Below, in pieces: positions 9,406-15,277 of a stretch of DNA of 64,000 nt. The DNA lies in assembly GCA_903862955.1 (NCBI GenBank), contig CAIPAH010000030.1, positions 62,001 to 126,000 on the forward strand, written 5' to 3'. The position numbers and the translations under genes were made by a program. How positions within the stretch are numbered: the stretch's first letter is position 1; each line of letters opens with the position of its first letter. Source of the DNA: an uncultured Opitutia bacterium. Its GTDB lineage: Bacteria > Verrucomicrobiota > Verrucomicrobiia > Opitutales > Opitutaceae. Under the pieces are notes generated by a model. It was given only the letters and a program-made list of their open reading frames with translations, searched no databases and had not been told where the DNA came from.

Positions 9406-9490
9406 GGCCCACGGAACACACGGAAGACACGGAAGCTCACTTGCAGGCGTGCCCGCAATTTTTCCGTGTCTTCCGTGTGTTCCGTGGGCC
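9406..9490. repeat. Family B palindromic repeat (29-bp perfect arms)
   Basis: Arms 9406-9434 and 9462-9490 are perfect 29-bp reverse complements with a 27-nt loop. They are built from the units CACGGAA / TTCCGTG repeated three times with varying linkers. It fills the spacer between divergent rsmD and the metallo-hydrolase gene and probably forms a large cruciform or transcript hairpin. Confidence 0.85.
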
Positions 9491-9504
9491 ATAAAAACGC
9501 GCCC

Positions 9505-10461
9505 ATGACACTCCCCGCCTCCGATCACTTCAACGGGAAAACCTTTTTCAATCCCGGCGGCCCGGCGGAGCGCGGCATGCTCGACGTGTTGCGCTGGCAG
9601 CTCACCAGCCGCGCCGCGCGCTGGCCAAAGTGGGTGGAAATCGTTCCCCAGCCCGCGCCGCCTGCAACCGCCGATGGCGCGGTGATGGCCACGTGGGTCA
9701 ATCACTCGACGTTTCTCCTGCAAACCGCCGGGCACACCGTGCTCACCGACCCGGTGTTTTCCGAACGCGCCAGTCCCTTCACGTGGGCCGGGCCCCGGCG
9801 AGCGCACGCGCCAGGTGTGGCCTTCTCCGACTTGCCGCGAATCGAGACGGTGCTCCTGAGCCACGACCACTACGACCATTGCGATGCGCCGTCGCTGCGC
9901 CGGCTGGCCCACGAGCATCAGCCCCTGTTCATCGCGCCGCTCGGACATCGCGCCCTGCTGGCCGAACTCGGGGCGACCCGCATCGTCGAACTCGATTGGT
10001 GGCAGGCGCATTCACCGGCGCCGGGTCTCACCGTCACCATGACTCCGTCAAAGCACTGGAGCCGGCGCACGGTGGGCGGGACCAACCGGCGGCTGTGGGG
10101 TGGATTTTATCTGCAGACGCCAACGCGCCGCGTCTGGTTTGCCGGGGACTCGGGTTACGACGAACCGCTCTTTCGCAGCATCCGCCAGCGCTGCGGCGCA
10201 CCCGATCTCGCGTTGATCCCGATCGGGGCCTACGAGCCGCGGTGGTTCATGTCGGCCGCGCACATGAATCCGGCCGAAGCCGTCCGGACGCATTTCGACT
10301 GCGGCGCGCGCCAGAGCGTGGCCATGCACTGGGGGACGTTTCAACTGACCGACGAGGCCCGTGAGACCCCGGTGCAGGCATTGGAAGAGGCGCGCGCAGC
10401 CGCTGGGTTGGCCGGGGAAAAATTCCGCGTCCTGTCCCCCGGGCAGAGCCTCGGCACCTGA
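9505..10461 (+). CDS. Metallo-beta-lactamase-fold hydrolase, NAPE-PLD/UlaG-like
   Basis: The 318-residue protein carries the dinuclear zinc motif HxHxDH as LSHDHYDHCD. It also has the NAPE-PLD-type elements VNHSTFLLQTAGHTVLTDPVF, PSKHWSRRT, FAGDSGYDE and MHWGTFQLTDE. No signal peptide or membrane anchor is evident. Homologues hydrolyse phosphodiester or ester bonds in lipids; the substrate here is unknown. The frame is open from 9466, but ATG 9505 starts just after the palindromic repeat and gives the expected N-terminus. Confidence 0.85.
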   Translation: MTLPASDHFNGKTFFNPGGPAERGMLDVLRWQLTSRAARWPKWVEIVPQPAPPATADGAVMATWVNHSTFLLQTAGHTVLTDPVFSERASPFTWAGPRRAHAPGVAFSDLPRIETVLLSHDHYDHCDAPSLRRLAHEHQPLFIAPLGHRALLAELGATRIVELDWWQAHSPAPGLTVTMTPSKHWSRRTVGGTNRRLWGGFYLQTPTRRVWFAGDSGYDEPLFRSIRQRCGAPDLALIPIGAYEPRWFMSAAHMNPAEAVRTHFDCGARQSVAMHWGTFQLTDEARETPVQALEEARAAAGLAGEKFRVLSPGQSLGT

Positions 10462-10617: not shown

Positions 10618-12126
10618 ATGATCCCTGTCCGCCTGATCGCCTTTTTTGGCTGTCTGGCCGCCTTTTTTACGCGCGCCGGGGCGGAAGAGCAAAATTGGTG
10701 GCCGGTGGCGGTCTCGCAGGTCGACGCGAGCGGGCAGGTTACGTCGTCGGAACATTTCGGCCCGTTCATGTTTCGGCACGCGGACAAGGATCCGGCCCGG
10801 GATCACACGGGCACCACTTCGGGCGTGCGCCCGTTCTACGTGCAGACCAAGGACGCCAATGGGCTGACGGTCGAGGCCACGATGTTTTATCCCATTTTCG
10901 TCTATCGGGGCTACAGCGACACCTATCGCTGGAGCATCTTCAATATCATCAATGTGGCGGGACCCACGGCGGCGGCCACGACGGACACCTCCGGTCAGGC
11001 GAAGGCCTTTGATCTCTGGCCTTTCTGGTTTTCGCGGGAGACGGGTTCGCCGGAAACGTCCTATCACGCGCTTTTCCCGATCGCCGGCACGGTGAAAGGG
11101 CACTTCAACCGCGACGAGATCTCCTGGGTGCTCTGGCCGCTGTATCTGCACACGGAAAGGAACGGCCTCGTCACCACGTCAACGCCCTGGCCGTTCATCC
11201 AGACGATGAAGGGGACCGAGCATGGTTTCGCGCTCTGGCCGCTCTACGGCTCGCGCGGCGATGACCATGGCACTCACCATACCTTTTTCCTCTGGCCACT
11301 GTTCTGGAACAACACGATCCAGCCGACCGATGATGCCCCGGCCGGCACCGCGCCCATCCGGCAATACGGCTTCTTTCCGTTTTACGCCAACGAGCAGCAC
11401 GAGGGTTTCAGAAACCAGACCTATCTCTGGCCCTTCTTTGGCCACACCGAACGCACCCTGCCCAAACGCTACCACGAGACCCGTTACCTCTGGCCGTTTC
11501 TCGTCCAAGGCAAGGGCGACGACCAGCTGGTCAACCGCTGGGGGCCGTTTTACACCCACTCCGTCATCAAGGGCATGGACAAGACCTGGATCATGTGGCC
11601 GCTCGTCCGCCAGGCCAAGTGGGAGGATCCCGGCGTCGCGCAAACCCGGACCCAGTTCCTCTACCTGCTCTACTGGTCGCAACGGGAGCGCAGCCTGACG
11701 AATCCCGCCGCTGCCCCGGCCGACCGCACGCATGTCTGGCCGCTGTTCAGCCAGTGGGACAACGGCGCCGGCAAAAAACAATTCCAGCTGTTCAGCCCCT
11801 TTGACGTGCTGCTGCCCTACAGCAACGAGTGGCGCGAGACGTGGACGCCGTTCTTCGCACTCTATCGCTACGACCAGCGCAACCCCGAGGACCGGAACTG
11901 GTCCGTGCTTTGGAGCCTGATGACCTGGCACCACACCTACGACACCCAGGAATTTCATCTCGGCCCGCTGTTCAGCAATCAATCAGGCCCCCAGTCGAAG
12001 CGCGTGGCCTTTGGCAACGGCCTGTTCGGCTGGCAACGCCAGCCGGGGGACAAGTCCGGGCACTGGTTCTGGTTCGATTTCCCTTCCAAAGTGAAACAAT
12101 CTCCGGCCGCCGTCCCGCTGCCATGA
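10618..12126 (+). CDS. Secreted Trp-Pro repeat protein coupled to Mla-type transporter, function unknown
   Basis: The 502-residue protein has a signal peptide (about residues 1-22, ending FTRAGAEEQ). It then carries a repeat of roughly 25-35 residues with a core of L/M/V-W-P/G-F/L followed by aromatic residues. Examples are DLWPFWF, VLWPLYL, ALWPLYG, FLWPLFW, YLWPFFG, YLWPFLV, IMWPLVR and HVWPLFS; weaker copies are GFFPFY, RWGPFY and HLGPLF. This pattern suggests a chain of beta strands or hairpins, either a secreted beta protein or an outer-membrane barrel. Its TGA overlaps the ATG of the downstream MlaE-like permease (ATGA), which implies translational coupling and a role in the same envelope system. 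I recognise no named family. Confidence 0.8.
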   Translation: MIPVRLIAFFGCLAAFFTRAGAEEQNWWPVAVSQVDASGQVTSSEHFGPFMFRHADKDPARDHTGTTSGVRPFYVQTKDANGLTVEATMFYPIFVYRGYSDTYRWSIFNIINVAGPTAAATTDTSGQAKAFDLWPFWFSRETGSPETSYHALFPIAGTVKGHFNRDEISWVLWPLYLHTERNGLVTTSTPWPFIQTMKGTEHGFALWPLYGSRGDDHGTHHTFFLWPLFWNNTIQPTDDAPAGTAPIRQYGFFPFYANEQHEGFRNQTYLWPFFGHTERTLPKRYHETRYLWPFLVQGKGDDQLVNRWGPFYTHSVIKGMDKTWIMWPLVRQAKWEDPGVAQTRTQFLYLLYWSQRERSLTNPAAAPADRTHVWPLFSQWDNGAGKKQFQLFSPFDVLLPYSNEWRETWTPFFALYRYDQRNPEDRNWSVLWSLMTWHHTYDTQEFHLGPLFSNQSGPQSKRVAFGNGLFGWQRQPGDKSGHWFWFDFPSKVKQSPAAVPLP

Positions 12127-12875
12127 AACAAATCACCGCCATCCTCGAGGGCTTCGGCAGCACGCTGCTGCTGCTGCTCCGCGCCCTCTCCTTCAGCGGC
12201 ACGCTTGTGCGCCAGCGGGCGCGGTTCTTCGAGCAATGCTACCTCATCGGCTACACGACGCTGCCGATCGTCGCCATTCTCAGCTTCTTCATCGGCAGTG
12301 TGCTCGCGCTCCAGGCCGGCTACTCGATGCAGAACTTCGGCACGCAGCAATTCATCGGCTCGCTGGTCGGCCTGTCCATGGCGCGGGAACTCGGCCCCGT
12401 GATGGTGGCGATCCTGGTGGCGGGCCGCGTGGGTTCCGCCATCGCGGCGGAACTGGCCTCGATGAAGGTCTACCAGGAGGTCGACGCGCTGGAGACGATG
12501 AACATCCCGCCCGCCCGCATGCTGGTGCTGCCCCGCCTCGCCGCCGCCCTGGTCATGGTGCCCGTCCTCGCGCTCATCGGCGACCTCGTCGGCTGGTTCG
12601 GCGGCGCCCTGGTCTCCAAATACACGTCGATCATCAGCATCGAGCCCGAGGCGTATTTCGCGGTGCTGCGGCGCTACACGCATTTCAAGGACGTGGTGAA
12701 CGGTCTGCTCAAGGCGGAGGTCTTCGGTTTCGTGGTCGTGCTCGTCTGCTGCAACATCGGCCTCAACACCCGCGGCGGCCCGCGCGAGATCGGCGCCTCC
12801 GTCACGCGCGCCGTCGTCACCTCCCTCATCCTGATCCTGGTCGTCGATTACTTCCTGACCCAGGTGCTCATGTAA
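12123..12875 (+). CDS. mlaE: MlaE-family ABC transporter permease
   Basis: The 250-residue integral membrane protein matches the MlaE permease family. It has an N-terminal amphipathic stretch, then LIGYTTLPIVAILSFFIGSVLALQ, the signature ARELGPVMVAILVAGRVGSAIAAELASMKV, the E-x-D segment QEVDALETM, and C-terminal helices. MlaE dimers form the inner-membrane channel of phospholipid transporters. The start ATG overlaps the stop of the upstream repeat protein. mlaF and mlaD follow immediately, so the order is E-F-D; no mlaB or mlaC is present. Confidence 0.92.
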   Translation: MKQITAILEGFGSTLLLLLRALSFSGTLVRQRARFFEQCYLIGYTTLPIVAILSFFIGSVLALQAGYSMQNFGTQQFIGSLVGLSMARELGPVMVAILVAGRVGSAIAAELASMKVYQEVDALETMNIPPARMLVLPRLAAALVMVPVLALIGDLVGWFGGALVSKYTSIISIEPEAYFAVLRRYTHFKDVVNGLLKAEVFGFVVVLVCCNIGLNTRGGPREIGASVTRAVVTSLILILVVDYFLTQVLM

Positions 12876-12877
12876 CC

Positions 12878-13684
12878 ATGCCTTCCGCCTCCCATACCCG
12901 CAATCCGTTCACCCACGTCGAGACCCCGGCCGTCGGCGTGGCCGTCGAGCACCTCACCAAGAATTTCGGCAGCCTCAAGGTGCTGAAGGACGTGTCGTTC
13001 ACGGTCGAGCCGGGCGAAATCTTCGTGCTGATGGGACCCAGCGGCTCGGGCAAGAGCGTCCTGCTGAAACACGTCGTCGGCCTCGAATACCCCACTTCCG
13101 GCCGCGTGATGGTCGACGGCCATGACGCCGCCTCGGAGTTGACGCGCGAGCGCGTCCGCATGGCGCTCGTGTTCCAGTCCGGCGCACTGTTCAACTCGCT
13201 CAGCGTCTACGACAACCTCGCCCTCTACCCTCGCGAACACCGCGTGGCCGACGAGGCTGGCATTCGCGAAAAGGTGATGCACGCGCTGCGCATCCTCTCG
13301 CTGGAGGGCGCCGCCAGGAAATTTCCCGCCGACCTTTCCGGCGGCATGAAAAAGCGCGTCGCCATCGCCCGCGCCCTGGTCATGGAGCCGCAGCTCATGC
13401 TCTACGACGAGCCCACGAGCGAGCTCGACCCGGTGATGTCCGCCACGATCAGCGAGATCATCGCCTCGCTGCGCGAGGAATACCACGTCACCACCATCGT
13501 CGTGTCCCACGACCGGGACCTCGCCCTCAACATCGCCGACCGCGTCGGAATCCTGATGGACGGCAAGCTGATCTTCCTCGGGCCACCCAGCGAACTGCGG
13601 GAACCCAAGGACCCCGTGGTGGCGGACTTCCTCGCCCCCAAAATCGACCTGCAGCACCCCCGCTTTAAAAAATTGGAGACCTGA
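12878..13684 (+). CDS. mlaF: MlaF-family ABC transporter ATPase
   Basis: The 268-residue protein has all ABC-ATPase motifs: Walker A GPSGSGKS, Q-loop VFQSGALF, signature LSGGMKKRVAIARAL, Walker B LMLYDEPTSELDP and switch histidine VVSHD. The methionine/lysine-rich signature (SGGMKKR) and FQSGALFNSLSV are typical of MlaF rather than other importers. It energises MlaE. The start ATG lies 2 bp after the mlaE stop, and the gene ends 3 bp before mlaD. Confidence 0.94.
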   Translation: MPSASHTRNPFTHVETPAVGVAVEHLTKNFGSLKVLKDVSFTVEPGEIFVLMGPSGSGKSVLLKHVVGLEYPTSGRVMVDGHDAASELTRERVRMALVFQSGALFNSLSVYDNLALYPREHRVADEAGIREKVMHALRILSLEGAARKFPADLSGGMKKRVAIARALVMEPQLMLYDEPTSELDPVMSATISEIIASLREEYHVTTIVVSHDRDLALNIADRVGILMDGKLIFLGPPSELREPKDPVVADFLAPKIDLQHPRFKKLET

Positions 13685-13687
13685 ACC

Positions 13688-14686
13688 ATGAACAACTCGC
13701 AACAGACTATCCGCGTCGGACTCTTTTTCCTCCTTGGGCTGGCCCTGACCTGGGTGACCTTCGCCACGTTGAGTGGTGGCAACATTTTCAAGACCGAGGG
13801 CTACAAGCTCATCGCCGGCTTCGAGAGCCTCAAGGAGCTCAAGAAGGGCGACGAGGTGCGCATGGCGGGCGTCACCATCGGTTCCGTCCAGGAAACCCAC
13901 CTCGATCTCGCCCACCGGCGCGCCGAGGCCGTCCTGCTCATCGACCCGGGCGTGCAGATCGCCAGCGACGCCACCGCGAGCATCGTCATGGCTGGCATCA
14001 TCGGCACGAATTACATCGGCGTTGACCTCGGCAGCCCCGGCGCCGCGCCCCTCCAGCCCGGCGCGGAGATCCACACCCACGTCACGCCCGACATCAACAC
14101 CATCATGACCGAGCTGGGCAACCTCGGCCAGAAACTCGACGGCGCCTTCAGCTCGTTCACCACCGCCATCAACGGTGACGGCAAGACCGGCGGCATCTTC
14201 CAGAAGCTCGACAAGGTCATCACCGAAAACAGCGCCAAGGTGACCGCCACCATGACCAACGTGCAGGAGATCACCACCAAGCTGAACAACGGCGAGGGTA
14301 CGCTCGGCAAGCTCATCAACGACCCGGCCTTGCACGACGAGCTCGTCGCCGCCGTCAGCGAGATCAAGTCCACCGCCGCCGAGGCCAAGACCTTCGTCAC
14401 TGACGCGCAGGCCGTCATGGCGCAGGTGAAATCCGGCAAGGGCACCCTGGGCGCGCTGGTCTACGACGAGACCGCCGCCAACAACCTCAAGGCCTCCGTC
14501 GCAAACATCCGCGCCGTCTCCGACAAGCTCGCCAAGGGTGAGGGCACGCTCGGCAAGCTCATCAACGACGACTCCCTCTACAACACCGCGCAGAACACGC
14601 TCAAGAAGGCCGACCGCGCCATCGACGGCCTCGGCGACACCGGCCCGATCACCGCCGTCGGCATCGTCGCCAACTCGCTGTTTTAA
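13688..14686 (+). CDS. mlaD: MCE-domain (MlaD-like) lipid-transport protein
   Basis: This 332-residue protein has an N-terminal membrane anchor (VGLFFLLGLALTWVTFATL). A single MCE domain follows (about residues 35-125: AGFESLKELKKGDEVRMAGVTIGSV...). The long C-terminal tail contains three related segments: GEGTLGKLINDPALHDEL, GKGTLGALVYDETAANNL and GEGTLGKLINDDSLYNTA, separated by helical spacers. MCE proteins form hexamers that carry lipids between membranes; such tails form helical tubes or coiled coils in other MCE proteins. The last 16 codons and the sequence after them are duplicated about 2 kb downstream. Confidence 0.92.
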   Translation: MNNSQQTIRVGLFFLLGLALTWVTFATLSGGNIFKTEGYKLIAGFESLKELKKGDEVRMAGVTIGSVQETHLDLAHRRAEAVLLIDPGVQIASDATASIVMAGIIGTNYIGVDLGSPGAAPLQPGAEIHTHVTPDINTIMTELGNLGQKLDGAFSSFTTAINGDGKTGGIFQKLDKVITENSAKVTATMTNVQEITTKLNNGEGTLGKLINDPALHDELVAAVSEIKSTAAEAKTFVTDAQAVMAQVKSGKGTLGALVYDETAANNLKASVANIRAVSDKLAKGEGTLGKLINDDSLYNTAQNTLKKADRAIDGLGDTGPITAVGIVANSLF

Positions 14687-14700
14687 GCCGCCAATTCGTC

Positions 14701-14751
14701 GCAAGAAATAACATCGGGCGGGTCTTCGACCCGCCCGATGTTATTTCTTGC
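14701..14751. terminator. Perfect 24-bp palindromic bidirectional terminator
   Basis: Arms 14701-14724 and 14728-14751 are perfect reverse complements around TTC. The GC core GGGCGGGTC is flanked by AT-rich outer stem. It lies between convergent mlaD and the DUF1579 gene. Its right arm includes the stop codon and last codons of the DUF1579 gene (stop 14741-14743). Confidence 0.8.
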
Positions 14752-15277
14752 GGTAAAGCCCGTCGAAGACCGGCTGCCAGCTCTTGCCGCCATCCCGCGA
14801 CTGTTCCCAGAACTGCCGCACCGTACCATCGGCTTTCGGGGTCCATGTGATCCGTTCCAAAAGGGATTGCCCGCGGACGGTGTGTGACCCGCTGAGCACC
14901 ATCGAGCCGTCGTGCAGGCCGCCCGCCAGCTCGAGCACCCCGCCGCGGCTCCCGATCCAGAACTGCTGCCATTGCCGGGTGCCCAGGTTGTAACAATTCA
15001 GGCTCTTGCCGTTGCCGCCGCCCGCCGCGGGATCGCCAGTCCAGTTTTCCAGCAGGCCATGGCCTTCCGCCACGGACTCGATGCGGCTCGTACCCGCAGC
15101 CTTGCCGTCGGGCGTGGTCACCTGCCACTCCCCTAGCCAGAAATCAAACTCATGGTTGATCGGCGGCGGAGACGGCAGGGGCGCCGGGGAAGTCGGCGTC
15201 TGGGCCAGCAGCGTCACCGCAGAGAGCAATGCCAGGAGCGTCACTGCGGGGGCAGTGGACAGGAGTTTGGGGTGCAT
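14741..15277 (-). CDS. Secreted DUF1579-like protein
   Basis: The 178-residue protein has a signal peptide (KLLSTAPAVTLLALLSAVTLLAQT) and a proline-rich linker. The mature domain starts with EFDFWLGEWQVTTPDGK, the hallmark opening of DUF1579-type beta-barrel proteins, and includes NCYNLGTRQWQQFWIGSRGG. Members are often periplasmic and of unknown function. The 3' end is built into the palindromic terminator shared with mlaD. The gene lies inside the duplicated mlaD/argG junction, so it is probably a later insertion. Confidence 0.75.
   Translation of the reverse strand: MHPKLLSTAPAVTLLALLSAVTLLAQTPTSPAPLPSPPPINHEFDFWLGEWQVTTPDGKAAGTSRIESVAEGHGLLENWTGDPAAGGGNGKSLNCYNLGTRQWQQFWIGSRGGVLELAGGLHDGSMVLSGSHTVRGQSLLERITWTPKADGTVRQFWEQSRDGGKSWQPVFDGLYRKK

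Follow-up and report, generated by a model that had tools for sequence, protein, structure and literature searches.

Which protein meets the outer membrane when an MlaEFD lipid transporter has neither MlaA nor MlaC, and its MlaD carries no beta-barrel? A study of the Veillonella system leaves this question open for barrel-less MlaD proteins in the parts of the paper accessible to us (PMC10665443), and the locus described here bears on it. The locus lies in a stretch of 64,000 nucleotides of contig CAIPAH010000030.1 from an uncultured Opitutia bacterium (hereafter the window, meaning the whole stretch analysed), in which a gene for an exported repeat protein (10618-12126) immediately precedes mlaE, mlaF and mlaD. 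We use WPM as a working name for this protein and its family. A preliminary description of the locus had proposed a secreted beta-repeat protein in this position as a candidate outer-membrane or periplasmic partner of the transporter, a proposal now supported by the linkage of WPM to mlaE, its rarity beside MlaA and MlaC and a motif of the accompanying long MlaD. Here we report that WPM is a family with a conserved gene position, seldom found with MlaA and MlaC, matched to a particular type of MlaD and built, on balance, as an antiparallel sheet. In this phylum WPM probably serves a trans-envelope MlaEFD lipid transporter as its distal partner, on the side of the outer membrane and in place of MlaA plus MlaC; from these observations we infer that it is located at the outer membrane, touches MlaD, has lipid as its substrate and takes part in transport in one direction or the other.

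A repeat family ahead of mlaE-F-D

Downstream of WPM, genes for an MlaE permease, an ATPase and an MCE-domain protein (PF02405, PF00005, PF02470) stand in one operon and make up an MlaEFD/MCE transporter, with the gene identities first assigned to them. The signal-peptide-like start of WPM and the ATGA overlap with mlaE were likewise confirmed (Table 1), and the overlap likely couples translation of the two genes. The window protein contains 10 Trp-Pro (WP) dipeptides, against 2.2 predicted from its composition, a number reached by none of 20,000 shuffles. A looser motif yields 18 units, most intervals between them being 17-27 residues and four reaching 34-47, and coevolution indicates about 24 strands, so that the 'ten to fifteen' repeat units counted initially were an undercount. 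Most strands carry a central (W/F/Y/G/S/T/R)-P motif. In an alignment of 39 diverse members, where identity to the window protein is ~20% for the more distant ones, fourteen strands each have an invariant proline (72, 92, 135, 154, 174, 192, 208, 227, 254, 272, 293, 310, 328 and 375), and P49 is almost as constant. The window protein has no lipobox; across the family, heuristic criteria gave an export signal in 192 of 231 members, a match to the lipobox regular expression in 27 and neither in 12. Nineteen of these 27 were judged convincing lipoproteins, and 12 of the nineteen are linked to mlaE.

The impression that no described family has this repeat was borne out by the searches. The window protein had no match in Pfam or NCBIfam up to E 1; members scanned singly (alignments of 27 and 39, with the window protein in each) returned scattered weak family matches with a best E of 0.01; a search of the PDB with WPM profiles gave no relative, the best E being 0.53 and 0.6; and one scan of IMG/VR revealed no relatives. 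Among the matches listed in a search of the PMC literature, whose scope leaves many subscription papers and bioRxiv outside, no WPM-like protein was described. WPM seems to be a family without earlier description, partner of a known type of transporter.

Profile searches of the kind first recommended recovered the family at every range examined: in 35 of 57 near genomes (that of the window included), in 77 of 273 genomes of the order (four of these, all of family f19, by weak local matches only), in 173 of 387 genomes of a phylum sample (with a narrow profile and many partial matches) and, with a broader profile, in 268 of 288 genomes of another class, that of genome G364. Almost all fetched loci align to most of the length of a profile rebuilt from the matches, which argues that WPM is one family. 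An 805-residue predicted lipoprotein (LLGGC; locus L098, 2023-4440) shares the WPxF-like repeats, and the stretch fetched around it contains no mlaE, so the repeat extends beyond the Mla partner; profile matches also occur in long frames of loci L097 and L099.

Linkage was scored on 235 distinct WPM genes whose match covered 300 residues or more (1 of 236 was dropped for a short match), of which 227 were testable once eight with less than 400 b downstream had been left out. An mlaE match lay within 400 b downstream on the same strand in 202 of the 227 (the fused locus L030 included), so that the survey of gene order in relatives, proposed at the outset, showed conservation; in four further loci mlaE stood at 572-1526 b. 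The rest of the operon generally follows: where a linked locus extended at least 2.9 kb downstream (139 loci), mlaF was present in 137 and mlaD in 136. Among the first relative loci read, mlaE directly follows WPM in 31 of 31 (29 distinct contigs), with a -4 overlap as in the window in 6, a gap of 0 or +1 in 21 and an in-frame fusion in one, L030. The position before mlaE is kept across classes at ~20% protein identity, and WPM and MlaE distances correlate (r 0.90, 203 loci). In the fused gene (L030 1462-3519, genome G021), the last ~65 residues of WPM are missing and the reading frame passes straight on into mlaE, giving 686 residues in all with the internal ATG kept; the gene may be either a natural fusion or a product of decay or faulty assembly.

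WPM, MlaA/MlaC and the types of MlaD

The whole genome of the window yielded no match to MlaA (PF04333) or MlaC (PF05494) and hence does not contain the canonical six-part Mla set; the absence of mlaC, noticed earlier at the locus, thus holds genome-wide. The reported lack of a lipoprotein partner stands for the locus, where no PF03886 protein was found among WPM, mlaE, mlaF, mlaD and the two neighbours scanned, but not for the genome. On contig C16 (L123, 3221-6926) a second MlaE-F-D set is followed by a protein of PF03886, the ABC-type (ATP-binding cassette) transport auxiliary lipoprotein component, a family to which we take PqiC to belong; the MlaE of this set, of a long-frame form, has an N-terminal extension of ~180 residues.

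In relatives, WPM and MlaA seldom coincide. MlaA was counted in the phylum sample, and MlaC in the near genomes only. Among the latter, WPM was found in 35, MlaA in 13 and MlaC in the same 13, with WPM and MlaA together in one (G034; Fisher p 9e-6). Counted by genus, 24 of 46 genera have WPM, 13 have MlaA and one has both (p 2e-4), and in the 387 phylum genomes the two (173 and 152 genomes) are found together in 21, against 68 expected. Both types occur inside single families (f1; f21). Eleven loci read in MlaA/MlaC genomes contain mlaE-F-D with a short MlaD and with MlaC and MlaA matches alongside, and their MlaE proteins form a separate clade (support 0.989). In the eight near genomes that have MlaE and lack both WPM and MlaA, MlaE occurs solely in the long frame of 368-405 residues; an exception is G040, which has MlaA and MlaC, yet only long-frame MlaE. 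In genomes of family f41 and others, many MlaA matches fall in frames of ~650-880 residues, far above the length of the MlaA domain, and these are possible MlaA fusions.

The two kinds of locus also differ in MlaD. Measured from the start of the hidden Markov model match, MlaD extends over 216-392 residues in 136 WPM-linked loci versus 143-159 in the 11 loci of MlaA/MlaC type. The 138 complete MlaD frames of WPM-linked loci end in F (124) or L (14), as the last residue of a hydrophobic tail ~14 residues long (for example, SPITTFSSIFFGAF or GPITAVGIVANSLF), whereas the last residue is charged in 11 of 11 MlaA/MlaC-type loci and the MlaD adjoining the PF03886 gene ends ERNPQALISGKGPRR. Two genomes whose WPM lacks a nearby mlaE carry a WPM-type MlaD tail elsewhere (G048, L066 and L139; G044, L078 and L140). 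On the simplest reading, and judging from sequence, the hydrophobic tail of MlaD would meet WPM. The window MlaD has a hydrophobic N-terminal segment, one MCE domain and a long helical region; a low-confidence model of it (two sequences; predicted local distance difference test, pLDDT, 43) places helices between residues 136 and 313 with ~19 residues after them, which would leave no room for a C-terminal beta-barrel. A further arrangement was seen in G016, a genome of MlaA/MlaC type, where locus L127 holds a divergent extra MlaE and a long MlaD with a proline-rich basic tail, with no WPM match in the fetched stretch.

Fold of WPM and its proposed place in the transporter

An AlphaFold2 prediction for WPM from three sequences reached a pLDDT of 29 and was not interpreted, so that structure prediction neither supports nor refutes a role as partner; for this reason we computed mean-field couplings instead, from 230 WPM sequences with an effective number (Neff) of 202, after setting aside L097-L099, L143, sequences shorter than 370 residues and near-duplicates. 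The 20 strongest ladders comprised 15 antiparallel ones at separations up to 30, one parallel at such separation and four long-range; by the same classes, the top 80 comprised 42, 11 and 27. Antiparallel turns are centred near residues 38, 60, 100, 121, 145, 163, 182, 200, 217, 240, 262, 283, 301, 318, 338, 384, 403, 422, 441, 458 and 476. When turns were predicted from motif positions alone, 13 of 15 fell in the top 5% of antidiagonals and a 14th at 5.1%, with a mean score of 3.37 versus at most 1.70 in 34 shifted controls. Several observations pull the other way: the strongest single pair, R307-W324, belongs to a parallel ladder (8.6, fourth overall), one in-register parallel score reaches 5.2, and control centres placed mid-strand score fairly high (mean 3.6 vs 5.4; Mann-Whitney p 0.003). 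On balance we read WPM as one continuous antiparallel up-and-down meander of ~24 strands, an even count that leans partly on degenerate motifs. Such a single meander counts against a solenoid or propeller and upholds the beta-repeat nature first ascribed to the protein; combined with an export signal, it is the pattern sought in an outer-membrane beta-barrel.

Averaged over 24 strands, a hydrophobic core of about seven residues (~-4 to +2 around the proline) is flanked by charge. Both strand faces are hydrophobic in this core (0.67 and 0.63, with strand parity uncertain at several hairpins), so that WPM does not show the porin-type pattern of a hydrophobic lipid side and a polar lumen side. 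Equally hydrophobic faces are unlike a porin with a polar lumen and would suit either a lipid-filled lumen or two packed sheets. Pairing of the first with the last strand, which would close a barrel, was not detected by coevolution: the best ladder between the N- and C-terminal strands scored 4.4, with ~2.4 such scores expected by chance, weak evidence against closure given the small coevolution set. Strand register was also considered as a gauge of barrel tilt and dropped as too imprecise.

In the mechanism that we propose, MlaE and MlaF would form the inner-membrane ABC pump that drives lipid movement, and six copies of the long MlaD would, by homology, assemble into an MCE ring whose helical needle spans the periplasm. 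WPM, presumably exported by Sec, would take the needle tip, with the conserved tail at the C-terminus of MlaD as the probable point of contact, and would carry phospholipid from needle to outer membrane or the reverse. Its part would then correspond to that of MlaC and MlaA together in the proteobacterial system, or to that of PqiC in the Pqi system.

Several points weigh against placing WPM at the distal end of this transporter. WPM and MlaA occur together in 21 of the 387 phylum genomes, the single-contig genome G250 among them, and in near genome G034, so replacement is not strict; the narrow phylum profile may miss remote WPM; and correction for phylogeny in the co-occurrence tests goes no further than the count by genus. 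The fetched loci came from match lists, best first and not at random, and 21 of the 227 have no mlaE nearby, for most of them within the fetched stretch rather than genome-wide. The correlation of WPM and MlaE distances may merely mirror shared species history. In L030, from one metagenome-assembled genome, a WPM without its C-terminus runs into MlaE, which would be odd for an outer-membrane protein, and the 805-residue repeat lipoprotein of L098 has no mlaE beside it.

What form the protein takes at the needle tip is a matter on which we are tentative. WPM could be a new class of outer-membrane lipid portal, a single-chain barrel of ~24 antiparallel strands, most with an invariant central proline, around a hydrophobic lumen and docked on the tip of the MlaD needle; were this so, a continuous conduit would join both membranes, a phospholipid counterpart of the LptD end of the lipopolysaccharide bridge, used in much of the phylum instead of MlaA and MlaC. 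It is rather doubtful, if still worth serious consideration, that WPM is instead periplasmic and sometimes lipid-anchored, an open antiparallel sheet or groove by which the MlaD needle is lengthened and lipid reaches the inner leaflet of the outer membrane, much as the beta-taco or jelly-roll fold of LptA, TamB and AsmA proteins might be likened to it. The 19 convincing lipoproteins, the repeat shared with an 805-residue lipoprotein, hydrophobicity on both strand faces and not on one as in a porin-type barrel, and the lack of an outstanding pairing of first and last strands would all fit such a groove, whereas the seven-residue hydrophobic core with charge on both sides resembles a membrane belt, the Pfam matches of the 27 and 39 members included none of the AsmA, TamB or LptA family models, and the missed closure counts for little at a Neff of 202.

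Two explanations would take WPM out of the lipid path altogether. That several copies of WPM form a PqiC-like collar around the MlaD tip, as an anchor through which no lipid passes, we consider unlikely: PqiC has been proposed to play such a part for PqiB, in the portions of that study available to us (PMC10897342), and the second MCE operon of the window genome has its PF03886 gene after mlaD, but WPM is a continuous meander of ~480 residues that matches no family. Less probable still is that WPM is co-transcribed with mlaE and serves another envelope function, for example as an assembly factor, outside the transporter; the 21 loci without a nearby mlaE and the repeat lipoprotein lacking one would agree with this, yet the position before mlaE persists across classes at ~20% identity, WPM is rare beside MlaA and MlaC, and the tails of MlaD match its type.

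The unit itself appears to begin with WPM. The metallo-beta-lactamase-fold gene upstream was considered as a part of the system and rejected, a homologue being present in only 21 of 167 loci with upstream room, nearly all within the family of the window genome; that this neighbour is mostly unconserved suggests that the unit starts at WPM. For the gene downstream of mlaD (14744-15277, minus strand), no homologue was found among 160 loci.

Table 1. Features of the WPM-mlaE-F-D locus, in window coordinates
Feature	Position	Strand	Description	Basis
Metallo-beta-lactamase-fold gene	9466-10461		Upstream of WPM	PF12706, 6.9e-44
WPM gene	10618..12126	+	502 aa, ATG start, exported, ~24 strands, unnamed family	Open reading frame, motif, coevolution
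Signal-peptide-like N-terminus	10618..10683	+	Residues 1-22, AGA|EE	By eye and heuristic
Motif-strand region	10699..11967	+	W28 to P450	Alignment of 39 members, coevolution
Conserved C-terminal strand	12058..12081	+	Residues 481-488	Family pattern ~[W/L/V/Y/F]-R-[L/F/V]-[L/F]-[W/Y]-[F/L]
ATGA overlap	12123..12126	+	WPM stop TGA (12124-12126), mlaE ATG (12123)	Sequence
mlaE	12123..12875	+	Permease, 250 aa	PF02405 E 1.4e-76; TIGR00056 above cut-off
mlaF	12878..13684	+	ATPase, 268 aa	PF00005 1.1e-34
mlaD	13688..14686	+	Long form, 332 aa	PF02470 E 2.3e-13
MlaD C-terminal tail	14642..14683	+	GPITAVGIVANSLF, type-specific tip ending in F	Tail comparison across 138 frames

Relation to known envelope transporters

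The canonical Mla system consists of MlaFEDB, MlaC and MlaA. The window locus shares with it homologous MlaE, MlaF and MlaD and the same presumed task; the canonical system differs in its short MlaD, its periplasmic shuttle MlaC and its outer-membrane lipoprotein MlaA, and within the taxonomic order of the window genome it represents an alternative cassette, found in other genomes. With PqiABC the locus has in common an MCE needle and a dedicated outer-membrane partner encoded in one operon, although PqiC, the outer-membrane collar of that system as far as the accessible portions of its description go (PMC10897342), is a lipoprotein smaller than WPM, and no relation between the two was detected. 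Unlike in Pqi, the PF03886 protein of the window genome belongs to its second MCE operon and not to the WPM locus. In mycobacterial Mce1, six MCE proteins each give one C-terminal strand to a hydrophobic portal at the distal end (PMC9882608); by analogy, the conserved tail of MlaD could act like these C-terminal strands. The Mce1 portal differs in being built from six different MCE proteins, and no WPM-like protein figures in the parts of that report accessible to us (PMC9882608).

The closest likeness is to the minimal MlaEFD of the Veillonella parvula type, in which MlaD carries a C-terminal beta-barrel and for which a trans-envelope bridge has been proposed (Grasekamp et al. 2023, PMC10665443). 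In its accessible parts, the same study describes PVC-group MlaD proteins as lacking the barrel, mentions as yet unidentified proteins, and argues that MlaEFD without MlaA, MlaB and MlaC is ancestral and the form that most diderms may use (PMC10665443). The window locus resembles this type in its MlaE, its MlaF, its long single-MCE MlaD (332 residues) and the absence of MlaA and MlaC, and, as far as that account goes, is unlike it in encoding a separate exported protein, WPM, and an MlaD predicted, at low confidence, to have just a short tail after its helices. With a conserved protein that probably stands in for MlaA and MlaC and a type-specific MlaD tip, the question of what meets the outer membrane becomes directly testable on one gene.

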